IMG/VR virus record: IMGVR_UViG_3300017767_000001
Coordinates: 30,591-94,590 of that record
Origin: a virus
DNA: 64,000 nucleotides
Strand: one strand, 5' to 3'
The number at the start of each line of letters is the position of its first letter. Positions within the stretch are counted from its first letter, which is position 1. Below are positions 5,636 through 22,693 of this stretch, piece after piece. The position numbers and the translations under genes were made by a program. The notes under the pieces are model-generated. The model was not told the DNA's origin. It saw only the letters and a program-made list of their open reading frames with translations, and did no database searches.

Positions 5636-6067
5636 ATGTCCGATTCACCAGTATCGCTCGCCAGTCTTATGACTGCAAGTAAAACCGTAGCTATTGATTT
5701 TCCTGGCTATAATGGCACACAAGTCTCTCTCTGCTATCTAGCTAGAGAAGAGCTGCTAAAACTTCGAAAACGTTGTGTTACCACAAAGTTTGACAAGAAA
5801 ACTCGCCAGCCAGAAGAATCTTTAGACGAAGAAAAATTTATTGTAGAATACTGTAAAGCTGTTATTAAAGGATGGTCAGGCTTAAAATATCGTTACCTAG
5901 AAGAGCTTCTTTTGGTAGATGTAGGAGACCTTGACCCCGAGGACACGCTTCCATATACACAAGACAATGCCGAGCTTTTGATGAAAAACTCAAATGTATT
6001 TGACAGTTGGGTTACGGAGGCCGTAGGAGATCTTGAAAATTTTACTGGGAACAAATCGCCCGAATAG
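5636..6067 (+). CDS. Tail assembly chaperone, short (G-type) product
   Basis: The 143-residue acidic product is encoded immediately upstream of the tape measure gene, where siphophages encode the G / G-T chaperones that coat the tape measure during tube assembly. It has an AAGGA site 8 bases before the ATG and its own promoter. Near its 3' end, codons AAT TTT preceded by A form a -1 slippery heptamer (6037-6043). Ribosomes that do not slip end at the TAG at 6065. Typical G proteins are about 130-150 residues. Family sequence identity is low across phages, so the call rests on position plus the frameshift arrangement. Confidence 0.85.
   Translation: MSDSPVSLASLMTASKTVAIDFPGYNGTQVSLCYLAREELLKLRKRCVTTKFDKKTRQPEESLDEEKFIVEYCKAVIKGWSGLKYRYLEELLLVDVGDLDPEDTLPYTQDNAELLMKNSNVFDSWVTEAVGDLENFTGNKSPE
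6037..6043 (+). other. Programmed -1 ribosomal frameshift site, A_AAT_TTT
   Basis: In the chaperone frame the codons read GAA AAT TTT. The heptamer A AAT TTT fits X_XXY_YYZ exactly, so both tRNAs can re-pair one base back as AAA and TTT. The -1 frame has a stop at 6034-6036 directly before the heptamer and is then open to 6471. The zero frame ends at 6065-6067. The only window where a productive shift is possible is therefore about 30 bases long and contains this heptamer. No strong downstream hairpin is obvious by eye. Confidence 0.9.
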
Positions 6068-6471
6068 AGTCTTTACTAGAAAGATTTATTCGGGAAGCAG
6101 ATTCTAAACTAGATGTTGAAAAATATTTAGCTGTCTGTGAACAATTAGGGCAAGAACCTGATCCCTCCAAAATGCCGCTCAACCCTTCTGATTTTCCAGA
6201 AGAGGTTCAAGTGGCATTTTTTATGTTTAGCCTTCTCCCGGAACACTGGGAAGGAATGAGTGGAACATATATGGGAAAGTATTGGGACGGAATAGAATAC
6301 TTTTTTAACTTGTATGAAGTAGACGATAGAAAAACAATACTTTATATAATGAAACTTTACGAAAGTAAACTAGTAAACTACAGAGCAGAACAAGCAGAAA
6401 TAAAACGTAAAAACGAAGCACGAAAAGCAAAAAGCGGTGGAAAACATTACACCCATAATGTAAAAGGCTAA
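6043..6471 (+). CDS. Tail assembly chaperone, frameshift extension (T-type domain)
   Basis: This is the -1 frame continuation of the upstream chaperone. It has no start of its own at its beginning. Reading from the shift point gives YWEQIARIESLLERF and onward through the first internal ATG (6172) to a TAA at 6469-6471, adding 142 residues for a fusion of about 278. It is rich in aromatic and charged residues, with a basic C terminus. In lambda the G-T fusion binds the tape measure through the T domain, while G-type product is in excess. The TAA overlaps the tape measure ATG by one base. An ATG at 6172 would give a 99-residue protein, but the conserved-looking sequence extends well upstream of it. 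Confidence 0.87.
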   Translation, partial: YWEQIARIESLLERFIREADSKLDVEKYLAVCEQLGQEPDPSKMPLNPSDFPEEVQVAFFMFSLLPEHWEGMSGTYMGKYWDGIEYFFNLYEVDDRKTILYIMKLYESKLVNYRAEQAEIKRKNEARKAKSGGKHYTHNVKG

Positions 6472-9400
6472 TGGCGAAAAAAATTCAAATTGATATTGAA
6501 GTCAACGGCAAAATGCAGAAAGTTACAATGTCTGCAAAAAAGCTACGCAAACAGTTAGATGCAATAGATAATGCACAAACTGATGTATCTAAATCATCTC
6601 GTGATACTAGTCGAAACATGCAGGGACTAAGTAAGCGAACTTCAAATACTACAAAAGAATTTTCAAAAATGCAACAAGGAATGGGAGGCATTGTAGGTGT
6701 ATATGCTACAATTGCTGCCCAGGTCTTTGCTGTATCTGCCGCTTTTCAATTCTTAAAAGATGCAAGTGACGTATCGAATCTAATTGCTGGTCAAAAAGCT
6801 CTTGGCGCTGTAACAGGCGTAGCTTATCAAACTATAACACAATCTGTAAGAGATGCAACATTGGGGCAGCTTTCATTTGCAGAAGCATCTAGAGCTACTG
6901 CAATTGGTATGGCTTCTGGTCTAAGTCCAACACAGCTCGAAGGATTGGCAAAAGCAGCAAAAAATGCTTCAATAACTTTGGGACGAGATCTTACAGACTC
7001 CTTTAACCGTTTGGTGCGAGGTACTACAAAAGCAGAGCCAGAACTGCTGGATGAATTAGGTATTGTTCTTAGATTGGACACTGCTTTAGGCAAATACGCA
7101 GACTCAATAGGCGTAGCTGTAAACGAGCTGTCTGCCTTCCAAAGAAGCCAAGCTGTAGCAAATGAAGTATTGTCACAGGCAGAAGATAAGTTTGGCGCCG
7201 TCGAAGAAATATTAGATCCTTCGGTTGCTTCCTTGAATAGATTTATAAATAGTTTTGACAATCTTATTAATACACTAAAAGTAGGTCTTATTGATAATTT
7301 AAGACCTGTTTTCGATTTTTTATCTGAGAATACTGCAGCTCTTGTAGGTGCTTTGACTCTTTTTGCATTGCCTATATTAAGAACAATACTTCCAAACTTT
7401 AAAGCATGGGAAGAGACAGCTACAAAAACATTTGATAACCAGCAAAAGGGATTAAAAGAATTAAATGATCAAATAAAATCATATGAAATTGATCTGAAAA
7501 AAGCATCAAAGACCCAACAAGATTTCGAAAGAGAAACCGCTGCAGCAGCAACAAGAGCAGTTAAAGAGTCTAAAACCAAAATGACTAGAGGCGAGCAAAG
7601 CGGTATGATGTTCCTTACTGGCCAAGGAAAACAAGACCGAGTAGCTGCTGCAAATGCAAAGAAAATTCTTGATAATGCAGAGGCACAACTCAAGTTAAGT
7701 GCGGATAAAAGAACAAGTATTTTAAGAAAGATGAATGCTCAGCAGCTTACTGACATGAGGGCTTCTTATAACTTAAGAATGGCCATCATAGAAGAGCAAA
7801 ATATTGGACTACTTACTGAAGCAGAAAAAATAGAACTGATGGAGAAGAAAAAAGAAGCAGAGACTAAAGCAAGATCTGGGCGCATGGGTAGGTTTATGAC
7901 TACCGCAGCAAAAAATATTGCCAGAGGAATAAATGCTGCATTTATGGCGGCAGGTATCCTGGGTCTTATCTCAATGGTTTTTTCACTTGGACAAGAGCTT
8001 TATAATGCTCTTTTTCCTGCTTCAGAGGAAATGAAAAGATTGCAATCTGAGCTCGACTCGACAACAGATAAGTTTGAAACTTTAGCGTCTGAAATTGATC
8101 GTATGGGGGATGCTCTGCGTTCTGACAAAGTCAATTTAATAGATAAAGTTGTAATATTAGGTAATGCTGCAAATTCTGCAGACTTAAAAGCTTTGATAGA
8201 CGATTTCACAATGCTAGAGGCTGCCAGTAAAGGTACCGATGCAAATACGGCAGCAACAACAGAAGCATTTAACTCTTTGCTAAGTGAAATATCTGAACTA
8301 TCTCCTGAGTTGGGAAGATTATCAAAAGCATATGCAGAAGGAGGGGACACTCAAGAAGAGGCAGGTAAAAAACTAAAAAATTATACCGAAAAGTTAATTG
8401 AGTCAGGTCAAGCAGTAAAAACACTTCCAGCAGCAACAGAAGCGGTAACACGAGAAATCACTAAACTTGCAGAAGCTACTCAAGAGGTAACTTCAATATC
8501 TGCTCTTGGAAGAGCTACACAAGCTCAAGCAGAAAAAAGTGCAGCCATTGTAGCAGGTGCAGAAGCAGCCCTCGGGATAGAAAAAGAACTACTAACTGCA
8601 GACCGAGAAAGATTAGCTGTTTTGCAGAAAAAAGCGAAAGCAGGACAAGTAGGAAGAAGGGGCCAGCAGCAGCGTAGGGGCGCTAAAGCTGCCTCTGCGG
8701 CTTTACAGACAGAAATTGCAGCTCTCGAAGCTGCAATTAAAAAAGATGGCAGACGTTTAGAGGCGCAACAAGCCAGGAATGACGAAATACAAGCGTTTAA
8801 TACATTAATTCAAGAATCTATTGCAACTGAGAAAGAAGCATTTGATAAGGCAAATACAAAACAATTAAAATCGAATTCGTTAAGAAATGCAGGTTTAACT
8901 TTACAAGGTAAGCTAAACAATGTTACTGCAGGCGTACTGGCATCAGAAGTAAAAAGAGACAAAATACTTGCTTCACAGAGAGTAACACAAGAAGCCTTAA
9001 ACCGAGCCGTAGCAGATACCGAGAACGATTTAGCACAGCAATCAATACCAAGATTACAACGACAGTTAGAGTTAGATAAACTTGCAACTTCAGAAGCAAA
9101 CACTCAATTAAAAATTGAACAAGATAACGCTGCTTTACAACGAGCACTCTTGCCTATTCAAGAAAAGCAGTTTGCACTGTCTGCTGATACAGCATTAGTC
9201 AGTGCACAACAACAAATTAATAAGCAGCTTCAAGATGAAATAAAAGCGCGATCGCAAATCTTAGATCTCGTACTAGATCAAGAAAAGAAATCTTTTGAAT
9301 TAGAAGCAAGAATAAAAAAGCAAGAAAATCCCTTCTTTAACGAAGAAAGATTTTTAGCAGAAAAAAATCTTGCATTTGCACAAAAAATGGCAGTAGAAAA

Positions 9401-10979
9401 AGGAAAAATTCTTGATCAAGAAAAAAACGCACAGCTTGCTGCCATTGATCTAGAAGAAGAAATGTTAAAGATGCAACGAGAAGGAGTAGCGCTTCAGCTA
9501 GAGCTATTAGCTGCTCAAATAGAATTTGCGAATGAAAATGGTAAGTATGACGATTTGCTAGGAAGAGTAAGTGATCAAATAGGAAAAACTAGAGCATCAG
9601 CCGCAAACATTTCACTAGATTTTAAAAGAGACTTAGTCGAAGCAAAAACTGCAGCAGAACAAACTAATTTACAAAATGCAATAACAGATGCAGAACTAAC
9701 CCTAAAAGCATTAGACCCAATACAACAAGTAATGGAAGCATCTGCGGACGCATTTAGAACCGGACTTACTGACGGCATAAATGGAGCTTTCACTGCTTTG
9801 GCAGACGGCACAAAAACTGTTGGAGAAGCTCTTAAAGATGCAGCAAAGTCTATGTTGCAAACAATTCAAAAAGAAATTACACAGAGAATGATAGTAGATC
9901 CATTAATTGATGGATTGCTTGGGGAAGATAAGAATGGCCCAACTGCCGTTGCAGCCGCTCATACAAATGGAGCTACAGCAATTGCAAGTGCTATTAGCAC
10001 AGCCAGTTCTACAGCTACTAGTAATCAAAAGCAGGCACTAAATACTGCGAACAATAATATGAAAACTACTTTCTCTACAGGGGCAACTCAGCTTAAAACT
10101 GCTATAATAGAAGCATTAAATAGTGGAATACATTTAAAGTGCTGCGGTGATGAGTCTACTCCGCCTCCTCCCGATCCTACTTCTATAGCAGAAAATCCAA
10201 GCCAAGCAGTAAATGAAGCTTTAGGAGGAGGTGTTGGCGCTCAAGGCCCCGGTGCTGTAACAACTGAAAGCTCTGGAGGAGGTGCTCAAATTGTAAAGGC
10301 ATCTGATCCTGCAGGCCCAATGGAAGAAGTAGTTGTAAGAGCTCCTGCTATAAAAGGATTGAAAGGTTCGTTTAATAATTTTCTTGGCTCTTTTGGAGAT
10401 ATATTTGATAAGAATGCTGAGGGCGGATTTATGGAAAAATTAGGTATTGCATTTGAAAGCGGAGGAGGTTTATTCTCGTCTTTATTTGACTCTTTACCAA
10501 ATATGTTTTCAAATATCTTTGGAGCTCTTACAGGAGGAGGAGGAGGCGGCTTCGGTGGCATGCTCGGCTCCGCAATTGGTAGTATGTTTGGCCCTATTGG
10601 GGGTGCAGTAGGAGGAGCCCTGGGCGGACTATTAGGTTTTGCAGATGGAGGATACACGAAAAAGATTAGCGGATATTCTGCAGGAGGAATAGCAAAAGGA
10701 CCGCGAAGCGGATACCCTGCGATGCTGCATGGAAATGAAGCTGTAGTTCCTTTGCCTGATGGAAAAACTATACCGGTTGCTATGCAGGGCGGCGGTGGAC
10801 AACAAAATAATGTTACTGTAAATGTAAGTATTGATAATCAAGGAAATGCTCAATCTAGTACTTCAGCTAGTTCTCAAGAGGGGGCTAATGTTGGTAATCT
10901 CGTCGCAGCCGCAGTACAAAAAGAATTACAAAATCAAAAAAGATCGGGCGGAATACTTAATCCGTACGGAGTAGCATAA
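6471..10979 (+). CDS. Tape measure protein
   Basis: The 1502-residue product follows the chaperone pair and precedes the M-type minor tail gene, the fixed place of the tape measure. It is largely helical, with long Ala/Gln/Glu/Lys-rich stretches. Hydrophobic segments at about residues 72-92, 286-306 and 483-508 could become the membrane-inserting parts on DNA ejection. The last 250 residues are Gly-rich and end with the pattern typical of tape measure C termini: a GG-rich helix-breaking segment, an FADGGY loop and an Asn/Gln/Ser-rich tail. No lysozyme or peptidase motif is visible. At about 0.15 nm per residue the length predicts a tail of roughly 220 nm. The start overlaps the chaperone stop (TAATG), and the stop overlaps the next gene in the same way. 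Confidence 0.93.
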   Translation: MAKKIQIDIEVNGKMQKVTMSAKKLRKQLDAIDNAQTDVSKSSRDTSRNMQGLSKRTSNTTKEFSKMQQGMGGIVGVYATIAAQVFAVSAAFQFLKDASDVSNLIAGQKALGAVTGVAYQTITQSVRDATLGQLSFAEASRATAIGMASGLSPTQLEGLAKAAKNASITLGRDLTDSFNRLVRGTTKAEPELLDELGIVLRLDTALGKYADSIGVAVNELSAFQRSQAVANEVLSQAEDKFGAVEEILDPSVASLNRFINSFDNLINTLKVGLIDNLRPVFDFLSENTAALVGALTLFALPILRTILPNFKAWEETATKTFDNQQKGLKELNDQIKSYEIDLKKASKTQQDFERETAAAATRAVKESKTKMTRGEQSGMMFLTGQGKQDRVAAANAKKILDNAEAQLKLSADKRTSILRKMNAQQLTDMRASYNLRMAIIEEQNIGLLTEAEKIELMEKKKEAETKARSGRMGRFMTTAAKNIARGINAAFMAAGILGLISMVFSLGQELYNALFPASEEMKRLQSELDSTTDKFETLASEIDRMGDALRSDKVNLIDKVVILGNAANSADLKALIDDFTMLEAASKGTDANTAATTEAFNSLLSEISELSPELGRLSKAYAEGGDTQEEAGKKLKNYTEKLIESGQAVKTLPAATEAVTREITKLAEATQEVTSISALGRATQAQAEKSAAIVAGAEAALGIEKELLTADRERLAVLQKKAKAGQVGRRGQQQRRGAKAASAALQTEIAALEAAIKKDGRRLEAQQARNDEIQAFNTLIQESIATEKEAFDKANTKQLKSNSLRNAGLTLQGKLNNVTAGVLASEVKRDKILASQRVTQEALNRAVADTENDLAQQSIPRLQRQLELDKLATSEANTQLKIEQDNAALQRALLPIQEKQFALSADTALVSAQQQINKQLQDEIKARSQILDLVLDQEKKSFELEARIKKQENPFFNEERFLAEKNLAFAQKMAVEKGKILDQEKNAQLAAIDLEEEMLKMQREGVALQLELLAAQIEFANENGKYDDLLGRVSDQIGKTRASAANISLDFKRDLVEAKTAAEQTNLQNAITDAELTLKALDPIQQVMEASADAFRTGLTDGINGAFTALADGTKTVGEALKDAAKSMLQTIQKEITQRMIVDPLIDGLLGEDKNGPTAVAAAHTNGATAIASAISTASSTATSNQKQALNTANNNMKTTFSTGATQLKTAIIEALNSGIHLKCCGDESTPPPPDPTSIAENPSQAVNEALGGGVGAQGPGAVTTESSGGGAQIVKASDPAGPMEEVVVRAPAIKGLKGSFNNFLGSFGDIFDKNAEGGFMEKLGIAFESGGGLFSSLFDSLPNMFSNIFGALTGGGGGGFGGMLGSAIGSMFGPIGGAVGGALGGLLGFADGGYTKKISGYSAGGIAKGPRSGYPAMLHGNEAVVPLPDGKTIPVAMQGGGGQQNNVTVNVSIDNQGNAQSSTSASSQEGANVGNLVAAAVQKELQNQKRSGGILNPYGVA

Positions 10980-11470
10980 TGTCAAGAGCATTTGGATTTA
11001 ACATAGATAAGCCTCAAGGAACTGTAGGGATTCCAGGAAGACTTCTTACAGACTTGACAGCAAAATACCCTCAGCTGGATACGAGTACCCCGGATTCCGA
11101 AGGGTATCATACTATACTGGAAAAGCTATATCCCAGCGGTATCTCTAGTCGAGAAATAACTTTTGACAGAGGATTTTCAAGAGAATCAACTCATAGAGTT
11201 CTTACTGCAAGTTTTGGAGATGGCTATCAGCAAAGAGTTAGAGACGGTATAAACACAAAAGTTGATAAGTTTAGCGTAACTTTATCAAATAGAATTTGGC
11301 AAGAAATTGCATTAATTTCTTCATTTTTTGATGTAATTCATCCTCAAAGCTTTCAAATAAATATGGAAAGAGAAAACTTTAAAGTTGTACTTGACACCTA
11401 TTCTGTAATGGTTGGCCACGATGATGTACAGTCAATTAGTGCAGACCTCTCAAGAGTATATGAAGCATGA
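10979..11470 (+). CDS. Minor tail protein, lambda gpM-like
   Basis: The 163-residue product contains the family signature ASFGDGYQQRVRDG near its middle, shared by the lambda minor tail protein M family (Phage_min_tail). In lambda, M joins the tail tip to the distal tube. It is the first of five genes in the lambda order M-L-K-I-J. The start overlaps the tape measure stop as TAATG and the stop overlaps the next start as ATGA. The first 60 residues, before the family core, appear to be an extra N-terminal extension. Confidence 0.85.
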   Translation: MSRAFGFNIDKPQGTVGIPGRLLTDLTAKYPQLDTSTPDSEGYHTILEKLYPSGISSREITFDRGFSRESTHRVLTASFGDGYQQRVRDGINTKVDKFSVTLSNRIWQEIALISSFFDVIHPQSFQINMERENFKVVLDTYSVMVGHDDVQSISADLSRVYEA

Positions 11471-12690
11471 GCCAGAATATAATTGCAAAAGAAGCACAAG
11501 CATTACAACTTGCCTCTGACGAGGCTATTGTAAGTTTATTTGAGTTTTCTGGATTTGGTACTGTTTTATATTTTCATGCAGAAAATACGCATGAAGATAT
11601 TTATTGGAATACTAATGCATATGAAGCTTTTCCTATGATCGTAGAGGGCATTGAAAAACACGCAGATGGAGCCTCTGCTAGGCCCACATTAATAATGCCA
11701 AATGTTGAAAGTTTATTTAAGTCAGGTTCAAAATTTGATACAGATGGAGTAGCAAATCAAAATTCTTTTCTCGCAGAAGATTTATTAGGTAAAAGAATAA
11801 CAATTAGAAAAACACTTTCTAAATATGTTAGCCAAGGAACAAATACGAATCAAAGTCCTTTTGAATTTCCAAAAGCCGAATATGTAATTGATAGAATTGC
11901 ACAAAAGACTGCGCTTTCTTTGACATTAGAACTAGCAAGCCCATTTGAATTAGTAAATGTTAAAGTTCCTAGTAGAGTTGTAACTGGAAAATATTGCCCT
12001 TGGGTGTATAAAGGATGGACTCTTGGGAATACTGATGTAAGAAGTGCATGCCACTGGAGTACGAAAGTAAGTGGATTAGATGTAAATGGGAATGAAGTAA
12101 CAGATATACACTTATTTTTTACAATAGACGACGAACCTTTGGTGCATGAAAATGTAATATCTTCTACAAATTTGTCTGCTTGGAATGCAAACACCACATA
12201 CTCACTAGATTCAGTTATTACTCATGATAATCTTAAATGGCAGTCTTTTTCTGATGACAATGTAGGTAATACGCCGAGTGACAACAGCGCTCACTGGAGA
12301 GTTGTAAGAACATATAGAACGTATAATGTTGCAACTCCTTATGAGACAAATTCTACAGATGGAAGAAAAAGTGATTATGCAGTAGAATTAATAAATAATA
12401 ATGTTCCTGTTGTTTTTCGATGTGTAAGAGATCACACTAATAAACAACCTTCACAAAATCCCGGGTTCTGGGTACAAGCAGATGTTTGTGGAAAGCTATT
12501 GTCTTCTTGTAAAGCTCGTTACCAAGCTACAAATATTTCTAGTGGAGGAGGTAACAACGGAGCTAGTATTCTAGCGTTTACTACTATAGGAACGAGCCCA
12601 GGTATAAAACACGGAATGGCTACAGCAAAATTTAATACAGCAATAACTTTACCTTTTGGAGGGTTCCCTGGAACTCGAAGCTTTAGATGA
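11467..12690 (+). CDS. Minor tail protein, lambda gpL-like, with carbohydrate-binding insertion
   Basis: The 407-residue product has the N-terminal beta domain and Cys-containing C-terminal domain of gpL, which forms part of the tail-tip ring and holds a [4Fe-4S] cluster. Four candidate ligands are C177 (KYCPW), C195 (SACHW), C341 (DVCGK) and C348 (SSCKAR). The last pair keeps the 7-residue spacing of lambda. Between C195 and C341 lie about 145 residues, far more than in lambda. This insertion contains two tandem units of the type W..NTTYSLDSVITHDNLKW...N.P...S.HW, a pattern of type 5/12 carbohydrate-binding (chitin-binding-like) modules; the second, less perfect unit ends in NPGFWVQ. Overlaps with both neighbours are of the ATGA type. 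Confidence 0.85.
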   Translation: MSQNIIAKEAQALQLASDEAIVSLFEFSGFGTVLYFHAENTHEDIYWNTNAYEAFPMIVEGIEKHADGASARPTLIMPNVESLFKSGSKFDTDGVANQNSFLAEDLLGKRITIRKTLSKYVSQGTNTNQSPFEFPKAEYVIDRIAQKTALSLTLELASPFELVNVKVPSRVVTGKYCPWVYKGWTLGNTDVRSACHWSTKVSGLDVNGNEVTDIHLFFTIDDEPLVHENVISSTNLSAWNANTTYSLDSVITHDNLKWQSFSDDNVGNTPSDNSAHWRVVRTYRTYNVATPYETNSTDGRKSDYAVELINNNVPVVFRCVRDHTNKQPSQNPGFWVQADVCGKLLSSCKARYQATNISSGGGNNGASILAFTTIGTSPGIKHGMATAKFNTAITLPFGGFPGTRSFR

Positions 12691-13391
12691 TTCAAGACTT
12701 TATACATGAAATAGAATCTCATTTTTTTAGAGAATACCCAAAAGAAGCTTGTGGAGTTTTAGCAGTACAAAAAGGAAAAGCTAAATGGATTCCTTGTACA
12801 AATATAGCTGAAGACGATGATGATTTTTTATTTGACTCAAAAGAGTATCTTAAAATTTCTTTAACTTCCGATATTATAGGAATTGTACATAATCACCCAG
12901 ATGCGAGTCCAGAGCCAAGTGATTTTGATATTAAAAACTGCAATGCGCTAGGAGTACCTTACTATATATTTTCTTACCCAGAAATGGATCTTAATGTTCT
13001 TACCCCCGAAAAGAATGTAACAGAGCTATATGGTAGGGAGTATTCTTTTGGAGTTGCAGATTGTTTTGAAGCAATGAGGGATTATTTAAAAACACAAAAT
13101 ATAGAAATTCCTGCTAGAATTCCTTTTGAAGATAATTGGTTTAATAAAGATTTAGATTACTTTTGTCCTGATGTAATAAAAGAATGGGGAGGACAAGAAA
13201 TTTCTTTAGACGAACTACAAAAAAATGATGTTCTTACGTTCTGTGTGCAATCAAATGTTGCAAATCATTGCGGAGTATATTTAGGGGCAGAATCTTTTTA
13301 TCACCATGCAGTAGGACGACTCTCCTGCAGAGAAAATTTATATCCTTTCTGGATAAAGTATATAGACAGAGCATATAGATATGTTGCGTAA
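12687..13391 (+). CDS. Tail tip protein, lambda gpK-like: JAMM peptidase plus NlpC/P60 domain
   Basis: The 234-residue product has two recognisable domains. The N-terminal half is a JAB1/MPN metallopeptidase: E20, then H68-x-H70-P with S78 and D81, the complete JAMM zinc motif. The C-terminal half is an NlpC/P60 cysteine peptidase with C126 (in VADCFEAMRDY), H194 (NHCGVYLG) and a nearby His at 206 or 207 as likely third residue. This matches lambda gpK, a tail-tip component thought to process tail or cell-wall substrates. All catalytic residues are present, so both activities are plausible. The start overlaps L as ATGA, and the stop lies 11 bases inside the next gene. Confidence 0.9.
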   Translation: MIQDFIHEIESHFFREYPKEACGVLAVQKGKAKWIPCTNIAEDDDDFLFDSKEYLKISLTSDIIGIVHNHPDASPEPSDFDIKNCNALGVPYYIFSYPEMDLNVLTPEKNVTELYGREYSFGVADCFEAMRDYLKTQNIEIPARIPFEDNWFNKDLDYFCPDVIKEWGGQEISLDELQKNDVLTFCVQSNVANHCGVYLGAESFYHHAVGRLSCRENLYPFWIKYIDRAYRYVA

Positions 13392-14140: not shown

Positions 14141-17100
14141 ATGGTAATGCCTTCAATAGATTGGAAGGGCCCTAACTGGGTAGCTCAAGGTAGTATAGAA
14201 GGAGCTTCCAGTACTGAGCAAGTAATTGGTATTACGGATATAATTTCAGAAGGGCCCATTGCAGGACTTGCAAAGGGAGGGGGGAGTATTTACTTAAATA
14301 ATGACTCTCTATTTACTGATGAAGAAACTGTATTTGCGTCAACCGTAGGACTTACCGCTAGTTCTGACCATGCTTCTGGATCTGGGCCTAATATAGTTAT
14401 AAATGATTTTGAGAAACAAAGTTTTAACTGGAGCCCTTCGCAAGACGAGTTAAATACTTTAACAAGATTTATTTGCATTCATAATTTTCGAGAGTTTGGT
14501 GATGGAGTCACCGGAGTCGGGGCCACAAATAGCACATTTAGTATTAACTCAAGCAGTGCTGCTGTAGGAGGCCACCAAGCATGGCAGCAACCTGCAGGAT
14601 TTAATATAATAATTGACGGGGATTTTTCTTTATTTCCTGACGGAGCTATAGTAGACAAACATCATTTTACATTACAAAATATTCAGAATAATGATGGTCT
14701 TGTAACAATTAAAGATCCTTCTTCAGACAGAAAATTAACTGGATATGCTACTAATATTAATGGTAATAAAGATCAATTAACTGTTAAAGTATTGCTTCCA
14801 AATTTAGACAACCATCAATGGCTTAACGAAACAGATGCAAATGGAAACAATAAAATAATAATAAGTCTTTCTGTTTTTGTTAAAATTAGTTCAATTAATG
14901 GGAATGAGATTACTTTAACAGGACAAATTGGAATTTTTGAAAAATGTCGATTTAGTTTTACTAAGCCTCAGTATAAAGATGGTTCCTCTGCAAATTCTTA
15001 TAATCGTAAAGTACGATCCTCTACCTTTCAATTTGTTCCCGGAACAAAAGACCAACAGCCTTTAAAAACTCTAGCGGATAGCCCGGGGTCAAGTACTGTA
15101 GCGCTTCCAGGACTGCCATCGCTAGAACTAGGAGTAGTGCAAACTATAACACATACCGGAGCTCAAGCGGGAGAAATCGACGAAATACAGCTTCTCTTTA
15201 GGTATAATAGCGGATTATACACAATAAATACTGAAAGCGGAGATAAAGAAAATGCAGGCGCAGGATATGTAATTAAACTAGAAACTCAGGGCTCTGTTAA
15301 TGCTCAGGGGGTTATTTCTTGGGACGATCAAGGATTCCTTGATGGCAATATGACAATGACCACAGGAGAGTATAGTTTAGCAAATCAATTAATAAATGGG
15401 TATGATGGGGTTAGCGGAGGAGACTCAGGCTCTCCTGTGACTTTAGGAGGGCCTGAAAATTCAAGTTCAGGAGTAAAATTTGATGGCCCATCAGGACCAA
15501 ATACAAATTTGTTACTAGAAGGTACTCCTATTTTTGGACATGGAGGAAAACATGTTGGCCCTGTAAGTTTTACACATACAATAAATTTAGAGCCCTTTCA
15601 GCCTTTTAGCGGTTTTAGACTAAAAGTTTGCAGAATTACAGCGAGTCAAAATACTACAGACGATGCTTTTGGTCGTGCACATACTTGGGGAAATCGAGAC
15701 TCAAGAACAAAGCTAGGATATAGAGGCTCAGACGTAGATAAGTGGCAGGCTATTCAAGCAGGTGGAATTAGTGGTGCTTTTGGAATCATAAAAGAAAAAC
15801 TTAATTTTCCTTATACGGCTTTAGCAAATGTAACTTTTAGTAGCAGACAGTTTGATAGTGTTCCTACTCGAATGTATGACTGTTTTGGCATGCTCGTAAA
15901 AGTGCCGTCAAATTATACCACACGAGAAGAAACTGGATTGGTAGTAACTCCTGCTCCAGGAACTTTAGAAAAAGTTGGAAGTCTACCTTCGCCTCATAGA
16001 TTATATAGCGGACTTTTTACAGGTCAATTTCGAGAAGAAAAAGTATGGACAGATAATCCTGCATGGATTTTTTACGATATTCTTACAAACAATAGATATG
16101 GAGTTGGAGAATTTGTACAAACTTCAGATATTGATATTTATTCTTTATATAAGATTGCACGGTATTGTGATGAGCTTGTTTCTGACGGAAAAGGAGGAGT
16201 AGAGCCTCGGTTTAGGGCAAACTTATATATTCAAAAAGCTACCGATGTTTACAAAGTACTAAAAGATATGGCTACCATTTTTAGAGGTATGCTTTATTGG
16301 ATGGATGGCCAACTTACTCCTGTAATTGACGAAGCAAAAGCTCCTACATATACTTTTAATAGATCCAATGTAGTAGATGGAGCTTTTAGCTATGAGCAAA
16401 CAGGTACTAAAACAAGAACAAATCAAGTTGTAGTTCAATGGAATAATCCGGAGAACGACTATAAATTAGAACCTCTATTTGTAGAAGATAGAGAAAATAT
16501 CATCAAAACAGGACAAATTGTAAAATCAGAATCTGTAGCATTTGGCTGTACCTCAGAAGGACAAGCTATTCGCTATGGGAGGTGGAAACTATGGACTGCA
16601 CTCAATCAAACAGAAATAGTTTCTTTTAAAAGCGCATTAAATGCAGCTTTTATTGCTCCTGGCGATATTGTAAATATTCAAGATAATCATGACTATGGCT
16701 TTGCTTTTGGAGGCAGAATTTCTAATGCAAGTTATTCTTCCGGAAATACCACTATAACTCTTGATCGAGATATTTCTGTAGATCCAGAGTCGGGAAGCCA
16801 TACAAATATAGGAAGTGCAGGGACTTATACTCTTGCACTTTTGGTAGCAGAAAGAAAAGTTGTTGCAGCAAAAGACTGTAAAATTTGGGATAGTAGTACT
16901 ACTCCAGCAGCATATAAAAATTTCAAGAAAGGAGACGTTGTAACTAAATGGTGGAATGGCACTACTCAAATAGAAGTCGATCAACCTAGTGGTTGGAGCA
17001 ATGATCAATTTGAACAGTATACAGCAGATTCTTGGACTGCTCCGACTAATGTACCTGCTGGCGAAGACGAGCCAGTTCCTTTACATTTAGAATACGCAGA

Positions 17101-20100
17101 CGCACATAGAATACAAGATGTAACTTGCACAGCAAATGATCCTAACGGAAATGTTTTAACAATACAAAATCCTGCTGGTGTTCCTGTATTTGGAAGCCAA
17201 GCAGAGGCAGATAGAGTTGTTCAAGGGGGTATTTGGGCTCTCAAAGATGAGAATGAAACAACAGCTTCTTATAAAACATATAAAGTTTTAAATATTGTTC
17301 ATGAAGATGACAATAGTTATGCAATTACTGCAGTAGAATATTTTGATACAAAATTTGATATAATTGAAACAAACTTTACTACTGCTGTTCCTGACCCTTT
17401 ATTCCCAGTCGAAGATCCTGATAGCGTCTTGCCCGCGCCTAGAGGTCTTCGAGTATTTCGTTCTCCTCGAGCTGCAGACCCGGGAGAAGAGCTAGTTATA
17501 AAATGGGAGCCCCCTGCGGGGGAGTATGCAGAAACTGTATCAGGATATTCTATCTCTTGTAACATTCCAGGAATATTAGAAGAAGAAACCACAGCAGAAA
17601 CCTATAAAGAATTTAGTAAAGTTCCTGATGGAAAATATACTGTTTCTATACAAGCGTATTCTGCAACAGGCAAAAAATCTCGACCTACTTCAATTACTTT
17701 TTTTGTATATGATGTATATGGAGGAACAGCAGAAAGATATAAGTACATTTTAAAAGGGGGAAAGGTTAGCGCACCCTCGGTAGTTACTAATGATCTGACA
17801 TCAACTCCCATAAATCAAAAATTTAGATTTGAACAAGATCCTTTATATATTCTCTCTAATAATGACACTTCCTCTACCGGTACCGGAAAAGAACTTAATA
17901 TAGGGGGTACTGGACTCGACTATAGTATATTAGGAAATTTTACCGGCTCCACTTGGTTCGGTGAGGCGCAGACTGACAAAACTGAAGCGTATGTATTTCT
18001 ACGTAATTATAAAACAACACCTAATCTTCGACTAATAAATTATGTGCAAGACAGTGCCTTAGGACTAGATTATTGGTATGATCAATCTTTAGCCACCCAA
18101 AAACATTATAACGATAATGAAGTTTTTAATCATTTTCCTGGTAGTCCTGATATATGGGATCAGCAAAATGGGAAAGTCACACTAGAAAGCGGGTCTCCTA
18201 AAGTTACAGGAGCAGGCACCACCTGTAATTTCTTGACTGCATACTCTCCCACAAATGTAATAAAATTCAATGATGGCATGGCGGCAAAAGTAGCCTATGT
18301 AGAAGATGATAGATGCCTATATATTGATAGAGTATTTACTTTTAAAACTCATTCAATAACTTCTGCGGAGGTTCTAACAAGTGGAAATGTCGGAAATGTT
18401 AAGTATATAGCACCGGGACATGATTTTGTTGTAGGAGATTATGTAACCATTGAAGGCATGAGCAACTCTGATTTTAACTCAGATCAGACAACTCATCATT
18501 CAAAGTTTAAAATCGTTGCAGTACAGCATAACCAATATAATGATGCAGGAAGTTTAACAACTAATGGCTACTTTGAAACGCGACCACGACTTGGTTCTAA
18601 TGGCCAGTCTCTTACTGGGTCTTCAGCAGTAAATACAGGCGCTAACGCAACTACTGCTATTGGAAATGGAAAAACTGGAAACGATGCTGTTTATTCAAAC
18701 CACTTTAAGGATGAACTAAGTGTAGATTATTCTCGAGATTTTTTAATAGGAATAATTACTAACACAGGCTCATTCACTAATTACTGTACTTTAGACCCGG
18801 ATATTGGCAGGCCAAGAGCAGTTGTTCTTGACTCTAATTTTTCTACTCTTAACTATAATACTGTAGGAGCTAGTGGAGGAACTATAACCAATGAATTGCA
18901 AAGTCCTTACACAGATCTTACTTTAACTGGTGTAGCAATTGGTTTTGAAGCCCCTCAATTTAAAGTAACAGGGAACTTTTTACCAAATTCAACGTATAGT
19001 GAAGATACTGCATTTGCTGATGTTACTAATTTTGCCACCGGACAATTTACGAAACAAATAGCAGGTGCTTCTTCAGATTCAGATGAAGTACCCGCATTTT
19101 CTTCTCTCCCTTTAGAATTTTCAGTAATTGTTCGTGAAAAATTTGATCCTGATAATGCGGCGAAGCAAGTAACTCAAACAATTAAAATTTTTGGTGTAAA
19201 GGATGGAGCTTCTGGCACAGAAGGCAGAACTGTATCTATTTTAGGAGATGATAGCTCAGTAAGATACGATAGTTCAAATGCAAATCCGGACCCAAGCTCA
19301 ATAGTATTTACTGCTACTGCTTTTAATTTTCCTGCTCCGACAACTGACGATGACGGAGCCTACATTAGATTTAAAGATCATAATGGAAATATTTTACAAG
19401 ATTGGACAGCCATAAATACTGATGGAGTAGCTACCTATACTTTAAACTCGAGCTCATCAATAGTAATTAATGGAACAGCCACAAATCTTGGATACGGAGA
19501 CGGACGACCCTCCGGCACAGATTTTAGACCAAAATATGTAGAAGCAGAAGCGTCTCTTGATATAAATCCACGAGTTGTTTCCGCAACTGATAGTACTCCT
19601 ATTCTTTACATAACAGATAATTCAACTGGGCTAAATGTAAACTTTCCAAATAATACTTACCCAATCGACTCTGCAAGTGATGGGACTATTTCAACCTCTA
19701 CTCTTTCCGGCTCTGGTGGTACAATGGAAGTATTCATAGGAAACCAAGTAGGAAAGTATGTAGGTACAAATGATGGTACAGCAAATAAAAATAATAGTGC
19801 TATTAATTTAAATCCTGGTGAGTGGTATATTTCGAACGTACAATCTTCTGATTCCGATTTAACAGCAGGTAATATTTCATATGGGGGAGGAACAAATGGT
19901 AATCAAATTATTACTATTGCTGATGCTAGTTTTAATACTGGTGGAAATGGTCTTAACAATTCCGAAACAATCACTTGGACCATAACCGGCGCGGATTCTG
20001 CCTCAACGACTCTCACTACTAACGTTCAACAATCTTTGTTCAAAAACAAACCCGGAATAAATGCTACCCCAGCTTCGCCCGGAGAGGATGCTTATAATGT

Positions 20101-21679
20101 AGCAGGCACAAATTCTTCTCATTTATTTATTGCAAATGAAAATGGAATTGTTAGCAGTAATAATAATAATTTTTCAACTGGTTTTTCTGTAACTAAAGGA
20201 GGCACCTCTTATACTTATGCTACAACTGGAGGCGCTAACGATACGAAATTTTCTATAACTCTTACTAATCCTGTGAACTGTGTGGGATCAGTTAGTAGTA
20301 CAGGAATAGTTACTATTAGCAGTACTAGTTCTACAATTCTTACTTCTGCTTCTGTGACTACGGCTTCCTTAACGGTAGAAATTAGAGACTTAGGGGATAA
20401 TGACTCATTAATTGAAACTCATATTTTAAGATTTTCAAAAGTTAAACAATCAGTTCGAGACGGAGCAACCTTTACTTTCGGCTCAGTAGGAACAACAACT
20501 GCATCGGCTTGGGCAGGAACTTTAACAGCCTCCGCGGCTCAAGCTGCTGCAGGATTGGTAATTGGTAGCTCCACAGATGGGCACATTTCTCCTAACGATA
20601 GAGTCACACTAAGCTCCCCGCCTTACGCAGCAACACGAGTTTATACAGGCTCCAGAACAAATAATAGTGGCACTAATGGCCCCGTGAGCGCCTCTAGTTT
20701 CAGTTCGGTAGTAACTGAGTTTATTGATGGAAGTGCAATTGTAACTGGTACCCTTTCTGCTAATACGCTAGCTGCGAATACAACTATTAGTAATGCGATA
20801 AGAGCAGGAGAAAGAATAACTGTTGGAACTTCATCATCTCCTGCATCTGGAAAAATAAACAGTATAAATAAAACTAGTTTTAGTGATAATGATGCTGGTT
20901 TTTATATGGATGGCTCAGGCGATTTTGTAGTTGGAAACAGTACTAATTACTTTAAATTTGATGCCAGCGCAGGAACAATCTCACTTGTAGCTCCAAGTAT
21001 TCAGCTTACTGGACCTCCGGGCAATGATGGTACTGATGGTACTGATGGTAACGATGGTAACGATGGTAACGATGGTAACGATGGTAACGATGGTCAGGAT
21101 GGTAACGATGGTCAGAATGGTCAGGATGGTCAGAATGGTCAGGATGGTCAGGATGGTCAGGATGGTCAGGATGGTCAGGATGGGGCAACAGGACCTGCAG
21201 GACAAGATGGTGTACCGGGAAGTCCGGGAACACCAGGAGCTATGGGACCTCCGGGACAGTCAGGCCCTCCAGGTAGTACGGGGCCTCAAGGACCCCCGGG
21301 ATCTGCTGGAACTCAAGGAGCAGACGGCGCAGGCGGGTTCTTATACATAGTTCAAAGTAATAGTAGTACTCCTGCTTCTAGTACAATTCCTACAGGAACA
21401 TATGTGGACGGAGCTGTTGCAATTGTTCAAAATAATAATAATGAACAAAGAGCTTTTAGATTTAATGGTTCTTCTTCGCAATGGATTGGCCAGTCTTTAA
21501 TTAATGCAGATGTATTATTTGCAAATGCAATCGGTGCCACTCAGCTACAAATTTCCGCAGACAATTCGAATACTGCAAGTTCTATTTTTATGGACGGCAG
21601 TTCAGGACCTAGCGGAACAGGGCCTCGAATACTTATAAGAGATTCGAGTAGGATTCGTGTAATACTTGGAAGACTTTAA
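14141..21679 (+). CDS. Host specificity / central tail tip protein, lambda gpJ-like, with collagen-like stalk
   Basis: The 2512-residue product is over twice the length of lambda J (1132). The first 1090 or so residues form the J core: tip-ring domains, including a region with WIFYDILTNNRYGVGEF near residue 650, a strong J-family motif. A fibronectin type III-like domain follows at about 1095-1190. The middle (about 1200-2200) is a chain of Thr/Asn/Ser-rich beta domains. Residues 2291-2398 are 36 uninterrupted Gly-X-Y triplets. The last 110 residues form a beta-rich cap ending in RILIRDSSRIRVILGRL, a motif seen at J C termini. The collagen part probably forms a trimeric stalk. The ATG at 14141 comes one base after the I stop; a second ATG at 14147 is possible. 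Confidence 0.88.
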   Translation: MVMPSIDWKGPNWVAQGSIEGASSTEQVIGITDIISEGPIAGLAKGGGSIYLNNDSLFTDEETVFASTVGLTASSDHASGSGPNIVINDFEKQSFNWSPSQDELNTLTRFICIHNFREFGDGVTGVGATNSTFSINSSSAAVGGHQAWQQPAGFNIIIDGDFSLFPDGAIVDKHHFTLQNIQNNDGLVTIKDPSSDRKLTGYATNINGNKDQLTVKVLLPNLDNHQWLNETDANGNNKIIISLSVFVKISSINGNEITLTGQIGIFEKCRFSFTKPQYKDGSSANSYNRKVRSSTFQFVPGTKDQQPLKTLADSPGSSTVALPGLPSLELGVVQTITHTGAQAGEIDEIQLLFRYNSGLYTINTESGDKENAGAGYVIKLETQGSVNAQGVISWDDQGFLDGNMTMTTGEYSLANQLINGYDGVSGGDSGSPVTLGGPENSSSGVKFDGPSGPNTNLLLEGTPIFGHGGKHVGPVSFTHTINLEPFQPFSGFRLKVCRITASQNTTDDAFGRAHTWGNRDSRTKLGYRGSDVDKWQAIQAGGISGAFGIIKEKLNFPYTALANVTFSSRQFDSVPTRMYDCFGMLVKVPSNYTTREETGLVVTPAPGTLEKVGSLPSPHRLYSGLFTGQFREEKVWTDNPAWIFYDILTNNRYGVGEFVQTSDIDIYSLYKIARYCDELVSDGKGGVEPRFRANLYIQKATDVYKVLKDMATIFRGMLYWMDGQLTPVIDEAKAPTYTFNRSNVVDGAFSYEQTGTKTRTNQVVVQWNNPENDYKLEPLFVEDRENIIKTGQIVKSESVAFGCTSEGQAIRYGRWKLWTALNQTEIVSFKSALNAAFIAPGDIVNIQDNHDYGFAFGGRISNASYSSGNTTITLDRDISVDPESGSHTNIGSAGTYTLALLVAERKVVAAKDCKIWDSSTTPAAYKNFKKGDVVTKWWNGTTQIEVDQPSGWSNDQFEQYTADSWTAPTNVPAGEDEPVPLHLEYADAHRIQDVTCTANDPNGNVLTIQNPAGVPVFGSQAEADRVVQGGIWALKDENETTASYKTYKVLNIVHEDDNSYAITAVEYFDTKFDIIETNFTTAVPDPLFPVEDPDSVLPAPRGLRVFRSPRAADPGEELVIKWEPPAGEYAETVSGYSISCNIPGILEEETTAETYKEFSKVPDGKYTVSIQAYSATGKKSRPTSITFFVYDVYGGTAERYKYILKGGKVSAPSVVTNDLTSTPINQKFRFEQDPLYILSNNDTSSTGTGKELNIGGTGLDYSILGNFTGSTWFGEAQTDKTEAYVFLRNYKTTPNLRLINYVQDSALGLDYWYDQSLATQKHYNDNEVFNHFPGSPDIWDQQNGKVTLESGSPKVTGAGTTCNFLTAYSPTNVIKFNDGMAAKVAYVEDDRCLYIDRVFTFKTHSITSAEVLTSGNVGNVKYIAPGHDFVVGDYVTIEGMSNSDFNSDQTTHHSKFKIVAVQHNQYNDAGSLTTNGYFETRPRLGSNGQSLTGSSAVNTGANATTAIGNGKTGNDAVYSNHFKDELSVDYSRDFLIGIITNTGSFTNYCTLDPDIGRPRAVVLDSNFSTLNYNTVGASGGTITNELQSPYTDLTLTGVAIGFEAPQFKVTGNFLPNSTYSEDTAFADVTNFATGQFTKQIAGASSDSDEVPAFSSLPLEFSVIVREKFDPDNAAKQVTQTIKIFGVKDGASGTEGRTVSILGDDSSVRYDSSNANPDPSSIVFTATAFNFPAPTTDDDGAYIRFKDHNGNILQDWTAINTDGVATYTLNSSSSIVINGTATNLGYGDGRPSGTDFRPKYVEAEASLDINPRVVSATDSTPILYITDNSTGLNVNFPNNTYPIDSASDGTISTSTLSGSGGTMEVFIGNQVGKYVGTNDGTANKNNSAINLNPGEWYISNVQSSDSDLTAGNISYGGGTNGNQIITIADASFNTGGNGLNNSETITWTITGADSASTTLTTNVQQSLFKNKPGINATPASPGEDAYNVAGTNSSHLFIANENGIVSSNNNNFSTGFSVTKGGTSYTYATTGGANDTKFSITLTNPVNCVGSVSSTGIVTISSTSSTILTSASVTTASLTVEIRDLGDNDSLIETHILRFSKVKQSVRDGATFTFGSVGTTTASAWAGTLTASAAQAAAGLVIGSSTDGHISPNDRVTLSSPPYAATRVYTGSRTNNSGTNGPVSASSFSSVVTEFIDGSAIVTGTLSANTLAANTTISNAIRAGERITVGTSSSPASGKINSINKTSFSDNDAGFYMDGSGDFVVGNSTNYFKFDASAGTISLVAPSIQLTGPPGNDGTDGTDGNDGNDGNDGNDGNDGQDGNDGQNGQDGQNGQDGQDGQDGQDGQDGATGPAGQDGVPGSPGTPGAMGPPGQSGPPGSTGPQGPPGSAGTQGADGAGGFLYIVQSNSSTPASSTIPTGTYVDGAVAIVQNNNNEQRAFRFNGSSSQWIGQSLINADVLFANAIGATQLQISADNSNTASSIFMDGSSGPSGTGPRILIRDSSRIRVILGRL
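21011..21334 (+). repeat. Collagen-like Gly-X-Y repeat with 9-bp tandem DNA repeat
   Basis: There are 36 consecutive Gly-X-Y triplets. The first half is almost only GND, GTD and GQD, encoded by about 17 near-identical 9-bp units (GATGGTAAC / GATGGTCAG) between 21026 and about 21180. The second half is Pro-containing, with seven prolines in the Y position (GPP four times, GVP, GSP, GTP). The two halves differ in both composition and DNA repetitiveness. Confidence 0.95.
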
Positions 21680-21682
21680 TTA

Positions 21683-22252
21683 ATGAAACAATTAATAAAT
21701 ACTCCCTTCTCTTTATGGGAAGGAGAGTTATCTTTAGATATTTGTAATGCAATTATAACTGAAGGTCTGGCCCAGACTAAAACACAAGGAACGATAAATA
21801 ACAATGAAACTATAGATGAAAACATGAGAAAGGGAAATATTGCTTGGTTAGCTAAAAATGGCTGGATAGATAATCTTTTATTTAATTATGTATATAGAGC
21901 AAATATGTTAAATAATTGGTTTTTTCAATTAACAAGTAGAGAGGCCCCTCAGTTTACTATCTACGAAAAAGATGAACATTACGACTGGCACAGAGATTGT
22001 GATGCAGCGCACTCCCTTCAGAGAAAACTTTCTGTTACTGTTCAACTTTCTGATCCTACTTCTTATGAAGGAGGAAATTTTCATATTAGAGACTACTGGA
22101 ATGAAAATGAAATTTTTAGCTGGCACTCTGGAGCAAAAGTACAAGGCACAATAATAGTTTTTGGGTCTTCACTAAAACATAAAGTATTTACAGTTACAAA
22201 AGGTGTTAGATACTCTTTAGTACAATGGTACTCCGGTCCAGATTTCATATAA
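21683..22252 (+). CDS. 2-oxoglutarate/Fe(II)-dependent dioxygenase, PKHD/prolyl-hydroxylase type
   Basis: The 189-residue product carries the complete double-stranded beta-helix motif: H103-x-D105 (YDWHRDCD), distal H166 (GSSLKHKVFTVTKG) and R176 for the 2-oxoglutarate carboxylate. The order YEGG.FHI, then G.IIVFGS, then KH.V..VTKG.RYS.VQW is that of the PKHD-type hydroxylases (YbiX-like), a branch of the prolyl 4-hydroxylase superfamily. It starts 3 bases after the stop of the collagen-bearing J gene, in the same operon and before the next promoter. A post-translational target in the tail is therefore plausible, but the substrate is not shown. Enzyme class is sure; substrate is inference. 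Confidence 0.9.
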   Translation: MKQLINTPFSLWEGELSLDICNAIITEGLAQTKTQGTINNNETIDENMRKGNIAWLAKNGWIDNLLFNYVYRANMLNNWFFQLTSREAPQFTIYEKDEHYDWHRDCDAAHSLQRKLSVTVQLSDPTSYEGGNFHIRDYWNENEIFSWHSGAKVQGTIIVFGSSLKHKVFTVTKGVRYSLVQWYSGPDFI

Positions 22253-22345: not shown

Positions 22346-22693
22346 ATGGATATAATTCAAGTAGTAAAAGGAGATACAGGACCGCAGCTAAAGGCGACTG
22401 TAACTCGATCAGATACTGGAGAGGCTTTCGTAGGGTCTGGCACCATAAATTTACGTATCCGTAAAAAAGCTACGACTTCAATACTAGCAACTATTCCTTT
22501 AGATACCGTTACTTCTAATCTAGCAGCAGGACTTTTGGTCTTTCCTCTTTCTAGTTTCTTGGCGCCCTCGAGCGGCACGGGGCCAGAAGAAGGGTTTTAT
22601 GAAGCAGAAATTGAATTTACTCTTGCAAATGGAGAGGTAATGAGTGTTTTTGAGTTAATTGATATAAAAGTCAGAGACGATTTTGGATCGTGA
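22346..22693 (+). CDS. Putative baseplate/tail-tip beta-sandwich protein (BppU-N-like)
   Basis: The 115-residue product has the pattern of the N-terminal domain of baseplate upper proteins: an opening VVKGDTGP, strands with TINLRIRKK, and a late EGFYEAEIEF followed by a final strand. It is probably a small virion protein that links fibres to the tip. It is the first gene after the fibre-module promoter. The stop overlaps the next start (GTGA). Similarity was judged by eye only. Confidence 0.5.
   Translation: MDIIQVVKGDTGPQLKATVTRSDTGEAFVGSGTINLRIRKKATTSILATIPLDTVTSNLAAGLLVFPLSSFLAPSSGTGPEEGFYEAEIEFTLANGEVMSVFELIDIKVRDDFGS

Follow-up and report, generated by a model that had tools for sequence, protein, structure and literature searches.

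Anatomy of the locus

Does a phage that builds a collagen-like stalk into its tail also encode an enzyme that modifies this stalk? The question arises in the window (the whole analysed stretch of 64,000 nucleotides, positions 30,591 to 94,590 of the IMG/VR record IMGVR_UViG_3300017767_000001), in which the gene for a J-type tail protein with Gly-X-Y repeats is followed directly by that for a 2OG-Fe(II) oxygenase (Table 1).

The upstream product matches phrog_31 (central tail fiber J, 5e-123) and Pfam Phage-tail_3 (1e-21), with the conserved J core present and 41–47% identical to that of the best-matching J proteins of isolates. Residues 2291–2398 form 36 unbroken Gly-X-Y triplets, and the GFL that comes next adds one more by chance; by comparison, 1000 shuffles of J gave runs of at most 6. 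The stalk is collagen-like, with an uninterrupted repeat beyond chance. The original prediction had J ending in 36 triplets with seven Y-position prolines (Y-Pro); both numbers are correct, but the run does not stand at the end of J, being followed by a 114-residue tip. The ending of this tip is related to other J tips (approximately 49% identity with that of the sibling locus L016 over 76 aligned columns). The first half of the stalk is Asp-rich, and Asp occupies 18 of 37 Y positions when the chance triplet is counted in.

Table 1 Features of the J–oxygenase locus, in window coordinates
Feature	Position	Strand	Basis
Central tail fibre / host-specificity protein J, 2512 aa	14141..21679	+	phrog_31, Phage-tail_3
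Stalk of J with collagen-like repeat: 36 Gly-X-Y triplets, of which 7 have Y-Pro and 6 X-Pro	21011..21334	+	Pfam Collagen 9e-16, triplet count
Tip of J, the 114 C-terminal residues behind the stalk	21335..21676	+	translation
Gap of 3 nt, J stop to oxygenase ATG	21680..21682	+	sequence
2OG-Fe(II) oxygenase, predicted P4H/PKHD fold, 189 aa	21683..22252	+	PF13640, phrog_61, invariant residues, model
Codons of oxygenase H103, D105, H166, R176	21989-21991, 21995-21997, 22178-22180, 22208-22210	+	HxD...H...R motif
Cassette without nucleotide homology in L016	20053..22249	+	blastn and blastp, window vs. L016
Gene for a 115-aa protein behind the oxygenase, bounding the cassette on the right	22346..22693	+	retained in L016 directly after J

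As the original prediction held, only three bases separate the two reading frames, and a GGAAG at 21669–21673, inside the end of J, could be the ribosome-binding site of the oxygenase gene. The encoded protein matches Pfam 2OG-FeII_Oxy_3 (PF13640; 9e-13, 49.4 bits vs. a curated cut-off of 27) as well as phrog_61 (1e-35), and is the only PF13640 match of the 94.6-kb virus record. Its HxD...H...R motif had been called intact and of the PKHD/P4H superfamily, in agreement with these matches and with the invariance of H103, D105, H166 and R176 (the iron triad and the 2OG-binding basic residue) in 51/51 aligned phage homologues. Pairwise dN/dS between the enzymes of the window and of three related loci (L001, L020 and L017) is 0.14–0.25, a level of purifying selection from which we conclude that the enzyme has been retained for a function. 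We also considered a tail-chaperone role without catalysis, which the invariant active site makes unlikely. Megablast of J plus enzyme against the phage collection returned no match, and a search of genome contigs for the close enzyme family found no relative and no prophage or host copy.

A predicted prolyl 4-hydroxylase-type fold

An AF2 model of the oxygenase, built from 51 homologues (pLDDT 91.8), has prolyl 4-hydroxylases (P4Hs) as its best PDB fold matches (TM approximately 0.7, 14–19% identity), including P. putida P4H, an algal P4H with a (Ser-Pro)5 peptide (3gze) and vCPH of PBCV-1 (5c5t), with PHD2 lower down. By sequence, the nearest solved proteins are the PKHD-type PiuC and Sbal_3634, followed by the P4Hs of PBCV-1, Chlamydomonas, P. 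putida and B. anthracis. The model predicts a double-stranded beta-helix and places the protein in the 2OG-Fe(II) superfamily, of P4H/PKHD type. Neither the fold nor PF13640 fixes the substrate, as the solved complex of P. putida P4H with EF-Tu illustrates.

Stalk and enzyme appear to travel together

We then compared the window with L016, which has a J core of 91% identity and a different stalk region, with no Gly-X-Y runs there and no PF13640 match anywhere in its 70-kb record. In blastn the two share 85–91% nucleotide identity through position 20052 and 94.7% beginning at 22250, so that homology restarts within 3 nt of the end of the oxygenase stop codon (22252), while at the protein level (blastp) J homology extends to residue 2278 (approximately 20974), just ahead of the stalk. 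Because homology with L016 ends inside J and restarts at the enzyme stop codon, these alignments show a replaced core of collagen stalk, tip and enzyme that was swapped as one block. The 115-aa protein on the right flank, which has no Pfam or PHROG match, is kept directly behind the cassette position in L001, L016, L017 and L021.

An IMG/VR scan with the J core yielded 80 related J loci, 4 of which (L019, L020, L021 and L017) carry the enzyme, always directly at the J stop. J of L019, which lies on the same contig as L001, has 36 triplets with 13 Y-Pro, that of the near-identical L020 and L021 has 28 triplets with 16 Y-Pro, and the J tip of L017 is a short GPPGPPG...PGPPGG. Using the close enzymes as queries, a separate scan turned up L102/L103, in which a 59% identical enzyme sits directly behind a J with 16- and 9-triplet runs (25 triplets) and Pro at X only. 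All five distinct close enzymes (at least 59% identity; the window, L001/L019, L020/L021, L017 and L102/L103) are located directly behind a J with Gly-Pro repeats, compared with at least 8 triplets in 3/29 of the enzyme-free J relatives with a visible end. The association of enzyme with collagen-bearing J has Fisher p values of 0.0009 if L017 is counted as collagen and 0.014 if it is not, both of which are only indicative because the J proteins are related; the window clade is likewise small, with related members. Within this phage clade, enzyme and collagen-like tip thus appear, from their distribution, to be gained and lost together, and this joint gain and loss makes it probable that the phage modifies the stalk of its own J.

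The original prediction also turned on whether the enzyme occurs in relatives that lack Gly-X-Y tails. At close range we found no such case; cyanophage and pelagiphage homologues, at 30–35% identity, mostly have no collagen nearby and stand beside glycine-rich or other fibres.

The pairing recurs in other phages

To look beyond this clade, we scanned viral contigs twice with collagen patterns (collagen-first), blind to enzymes and stopping at 120 loci; the scans gave 68 genuine collagen ORFs in a Y-Pro sample and 104 in an X-Pro sample. IMG/VR contigs are fragments, and among the loci with enough sequence the enzyme lay within 1.7 kb downstream of the collagen in 3/47 (Y-Pro) and 7/78 (X-Pro), and upstream in none of either sample, for a total of 10 downstream and 0 upstream. 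The other 44/47 and 71/78 collagen loci have no enzyme within 1.7 kb downstream, and with most sampled loci enzyme-free, phage collagens in general therefore do not need hydroxylation. Four loci (L151, L172, L232 and L233) carry another collagen fibre with abundant Y-Pro and then the enzyme directly; L232 and L233 were found by reading whole contigs, and their Y-Pro fibre is homologous to those of L151 and L172.

An enzyme-first scan with a diverse alignment yielded 80 loci. We assessed 28 clusters that have 3 kb of sequence to either side of the enzyme; some of these come from phage isolates. A collagen or glycine-rich ORF, by a glycine-rich rule set after the data had been seen, lies within 3 kb upstream of the enzyme in 18/28 clusters and downstream in 2 (sign p = 4e-4), against a background of one glycine-rich ORF in 400 random 3-kb windows of J loci.

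This directional, recurrent placement right behind collagen or glycine-rich fibres in several lineages bears on the possibility that the enzyme acts elsewhere, on a host protein such as EF-Tu, in nucleic acid repair or in metabolism, and merely rides in a tail-tip recombination cassette. Such a role has precedent in the EF-Tu-binding P4H of P. putida and in an EF-Tu-modifying P4H of solved structure (4iw3, 5v7y), and would fit the copies away from collagen in L244 and in cyanophages, whose homologues are often beside uvsW, as well as the DNA-repair role proposed for phage 2OG oxygenases (PMC9146016). Given both the placement and the joint absence of enzyme and collagen tip in L016, we consider it very unlikely.

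Several individual loci are described here in their own right. In L234, a very Y-Pro-rich collagen of 2471 aa with more than 600 Gly-X-Y triplets (5762-13174) is followed 2.2 kb downstream by a PF13640 gene (15365-16180). The isolates S-CAM9 (KU686205, L441; 3659-6525) and S-PRM1 (MH629685, L445; 4659-7525) encode a 59-triplet collagen tail fibre, with 31 or 30 X-Pro and 22 or 23 Y-Lys, and have 2OG oxygenase genes just downstream. Downstream of the collagen-linked enzyme, L400 (4408-5658, 417 aa) and L369 (6827-8575, 583 aa) each encode a larger protein whose C-terminus is a second oxygenase-like one.

Enzyme lineages and partner proteins

We constructed a quick tree of 65 enzyme clusters, whose deep branches are weak. 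The label "collagen within 1.7 kb upstream" requires 5 changes on this tree vs. 18 in shuffles, with 0/500 shuffles as low, and at least two of the changes are forced by the starred branches. Collagen-linked enzymes cluster apart from the cyanophage/pelagiphage clade, in which no collagen partner was found within 1.7 kb upstream in the tree set.

These clades also help to weigh a broader alternative, namely that marine phages use the oxygenase as a general enzyme linked to tail fibres and serving any glycine-rich adhesin, its proximity to collagen reflecting the adhesin module. The upstream excess among the 28 clusters is what such an enzyme would produce, particularly with 11 of the upstream partners not being collagen; the separate clades of the collagen-linked enzymes, on the other hand, suggest specialised partners, and we judge the alternative improbable. 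It contains stalk hydroxylation as an explanation rather than opposing it.

The 11 partners in question, all within 3 kb upstream in the enzyme-first sample (L005, L006, L009, L014, L360, L383, L385, L387, L388, L398 and L399), are glycine-rich, polyglycine-like tail proteins with scattered GP/PG. The same enzyme–adhesin logic possibly applies to the glycine-rich tips at these loci.

Which residue is the likely target?

The original prediction singled out Y-position proline as the specific target, and the comparison does not support this part of it. Collagens of related enzymes often have Pro only at X (GPT, GPQ), and that of L369, Lys-rich and 2.3 kb upstream of the enzyme, has none at all. 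A general rule of Y-Pro-only specificity was likewise rejected because the X-Pro control sample held enzyme pairs too. Within the window clade Y-Pro is present in the partner collagens of the window, L001, L020 and L017, and L102 has X-Pro only, so that the clade includes both kinds of partner. X-Pro partners are compatible with a prolyl hydroxylase, since B. anthracis P4H is reported to hydroxylate collagen-like (PPG)n at both X and Y, with Y favoured (Schnicker and Dey 2016, as relayed in PMC8968730).

Elsewhere on the tree, one clade (L151, L172, L226, L239 and L406) has Y-Pro-only partners, and another (L305, L359, L362, L365, L400, L425 and others) is paired with X-Pro GPT collagens and includes L369. 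A match between enzyme clade and the partner's proline position is a lead only, as common ancestry of the fibres may account for some of it.

Proline is nonetheless the sole candidate residue common to all five distinct partner stalks of the window clade. Counting against it are the window stalk itself, where Y-Pro occurs in only 7/36 triplets and Asp dominates Y, and the partner collagens elsewhere that are GQK-rich or Pro-free (S-CAM9 and L369, the latter Pro-free); moreover, the tip directly behind the stalk was exchanged along with the enzyme. The enzyme might accordingly hydroxylate a residue other than proline (Asp or Asn at Y, Lys, or Thr), or act mainly on the non-collagen tip. We regard this as unlikely, in view of the Gly-Pro-Pro stretch of L017, which contains no Asp, of the Pro-rich stretch of L102, which contains almost none, and of prolyl hydroxylases being the best fold matches.

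Proposed mechanism

We favour, with a probability of roughly 0.6, a two-gene tail-tip cassette in which a dedicated 2OG/Fe(II) protein hydroxylase modifies the stalk of J, most likely on proline, and probably stabilises it. The oxygenase would be translated right after J and act on the newly made stalk during infection, before or while its three chains fold into the presumed triple helix. Prolines in Gly-Pro-Pro or Gly-X-Pro triplets would be the most likely targets, and the result would probably be a stiffer or more stable stalk carrying the receptor-binding tip. We infer J as the substrate and proline as the residue from the arrangement, exchange and recurrence described above; stabilisation is taken from animal collagen, and the effect may differ here because most triplets of the J stalk lack proline. 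The original suggestion that the phage modifies its own stalk is thus strengthened by joint gain and loss, by recurrence in unrelated phages and by the P4H-like model, but its specific link to Y-Pro is not supported.

More tentatively, and with somewhat less than even odds, tailed phages may widely use dedicated prolyl (or related) hydroxylases that mature collagen-like or glycine-rich tips, as exchangeable enzyme–adhesin cassettes with enzyme lineages matched to the partner's proline position (a Y-Pro clade and an X-Pro GPT clade).

The cassette names a concrete substrate, from which a simple mass-spectrometry prediction follows, and S-CAM9 and S-PRM1, being isolates, make the pairing testable now. 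If the proposal is true, post-translational hydroxylation is part of building the receptor-binding tips of phages, and collagen hydroxylases of compact, single-gene form are available together with their natural substrates; a dedicated-hydroxylase role would further give many unexplained marine-phage 2OG oxygenases a main function.

Relation to known systems

Viral collagen hydroxylation (PBCV-1, mimivirus) and the action of bacterial P4H on collagen-like peptides are already known; the phage pairing and its broad genomic pattern appear to be new. The closest solved proteins by sequence, the PKHD-type PiuC and Sbal_3634 (9ghl, 3dkq), share the catalytic core but have 225–243 aa vs. 189 aa in the phage enzyme; PiuC is an iron uptake factor, and we know of no collagen neighbour for either protein. 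PBCV-1 vCPH is likewise viral, with a P4H fold and a small single domain, but belongs to an algal virus rather than a tailed phage and is 18–19% identical to the window oxygenase; to our knowledge, no dedicated collagen substrate gene adjoins it. The B. anthracis P4H (5hv0) is also a prokaryotic P4H, but is bacterial chromosomal and related to the window enzyme at the profile level only (1.6e-7). Mimivirus collagen lysyl hydroxylase/glycosyltransferase (Luther 2011, as cited in PMC8968730) offers an example of a virus modifying its own collagen, but on lysine, with a bifunctional enzyme and in an amoebal giant virus. PBCV-1 is credited with a viral collagen prolyl hydroxylase (Eriksson 1999, as cited in PMC9301287), the use of which in viruses has been termed cryptic (PMC9301287), and a printed claim holds that bacteria and viruses lack collagen prolyl hydroxylases, with no Y-Pro preference (PMC3368898).

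In the literature that we searched, no paper was found in which an oxygenase of a phage is connected with a collagen tail protein. Marine phages have up to 24 2OG-Fe(II) oxygenases per genome (PMC10665884), and for those of cyanophages and pelagiphages the function is given as AMG, DNA repair or unknown (PMC9146016, PMC9301287), the repair role being a guess (PMC9146016); Phold notes an EGLN3-like fold of phage 2OG oxygenases and does not name a substrate (PMC12774648). Like the window enzyme, the cyanophage and pelagiphage enzymes belong to phrog_61, and they are present several times per genome, frequently next to tail fibres. The Synechococcus isolates S-CAM9 and S-PRM1 share with the window a collagen tail fibre and downstream oxygenases, but are T4-like, with X-Pro and Lys-rich collagen and an enzyme approximately 30% identical to that of the window.

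Finally, the window oxygenase also matches phrog_3531 ("ferrochelatase"), phrog_274 and phrog_2297 ("DNA endonuclease V", "DNA endonuclease"), at 3.6e-9 to 0.006. Because of these matches, cyanophage "ferrochelatase" and "endonuclease V" genes beside 2OG oxygenases may be divergent 2OG paralogues.
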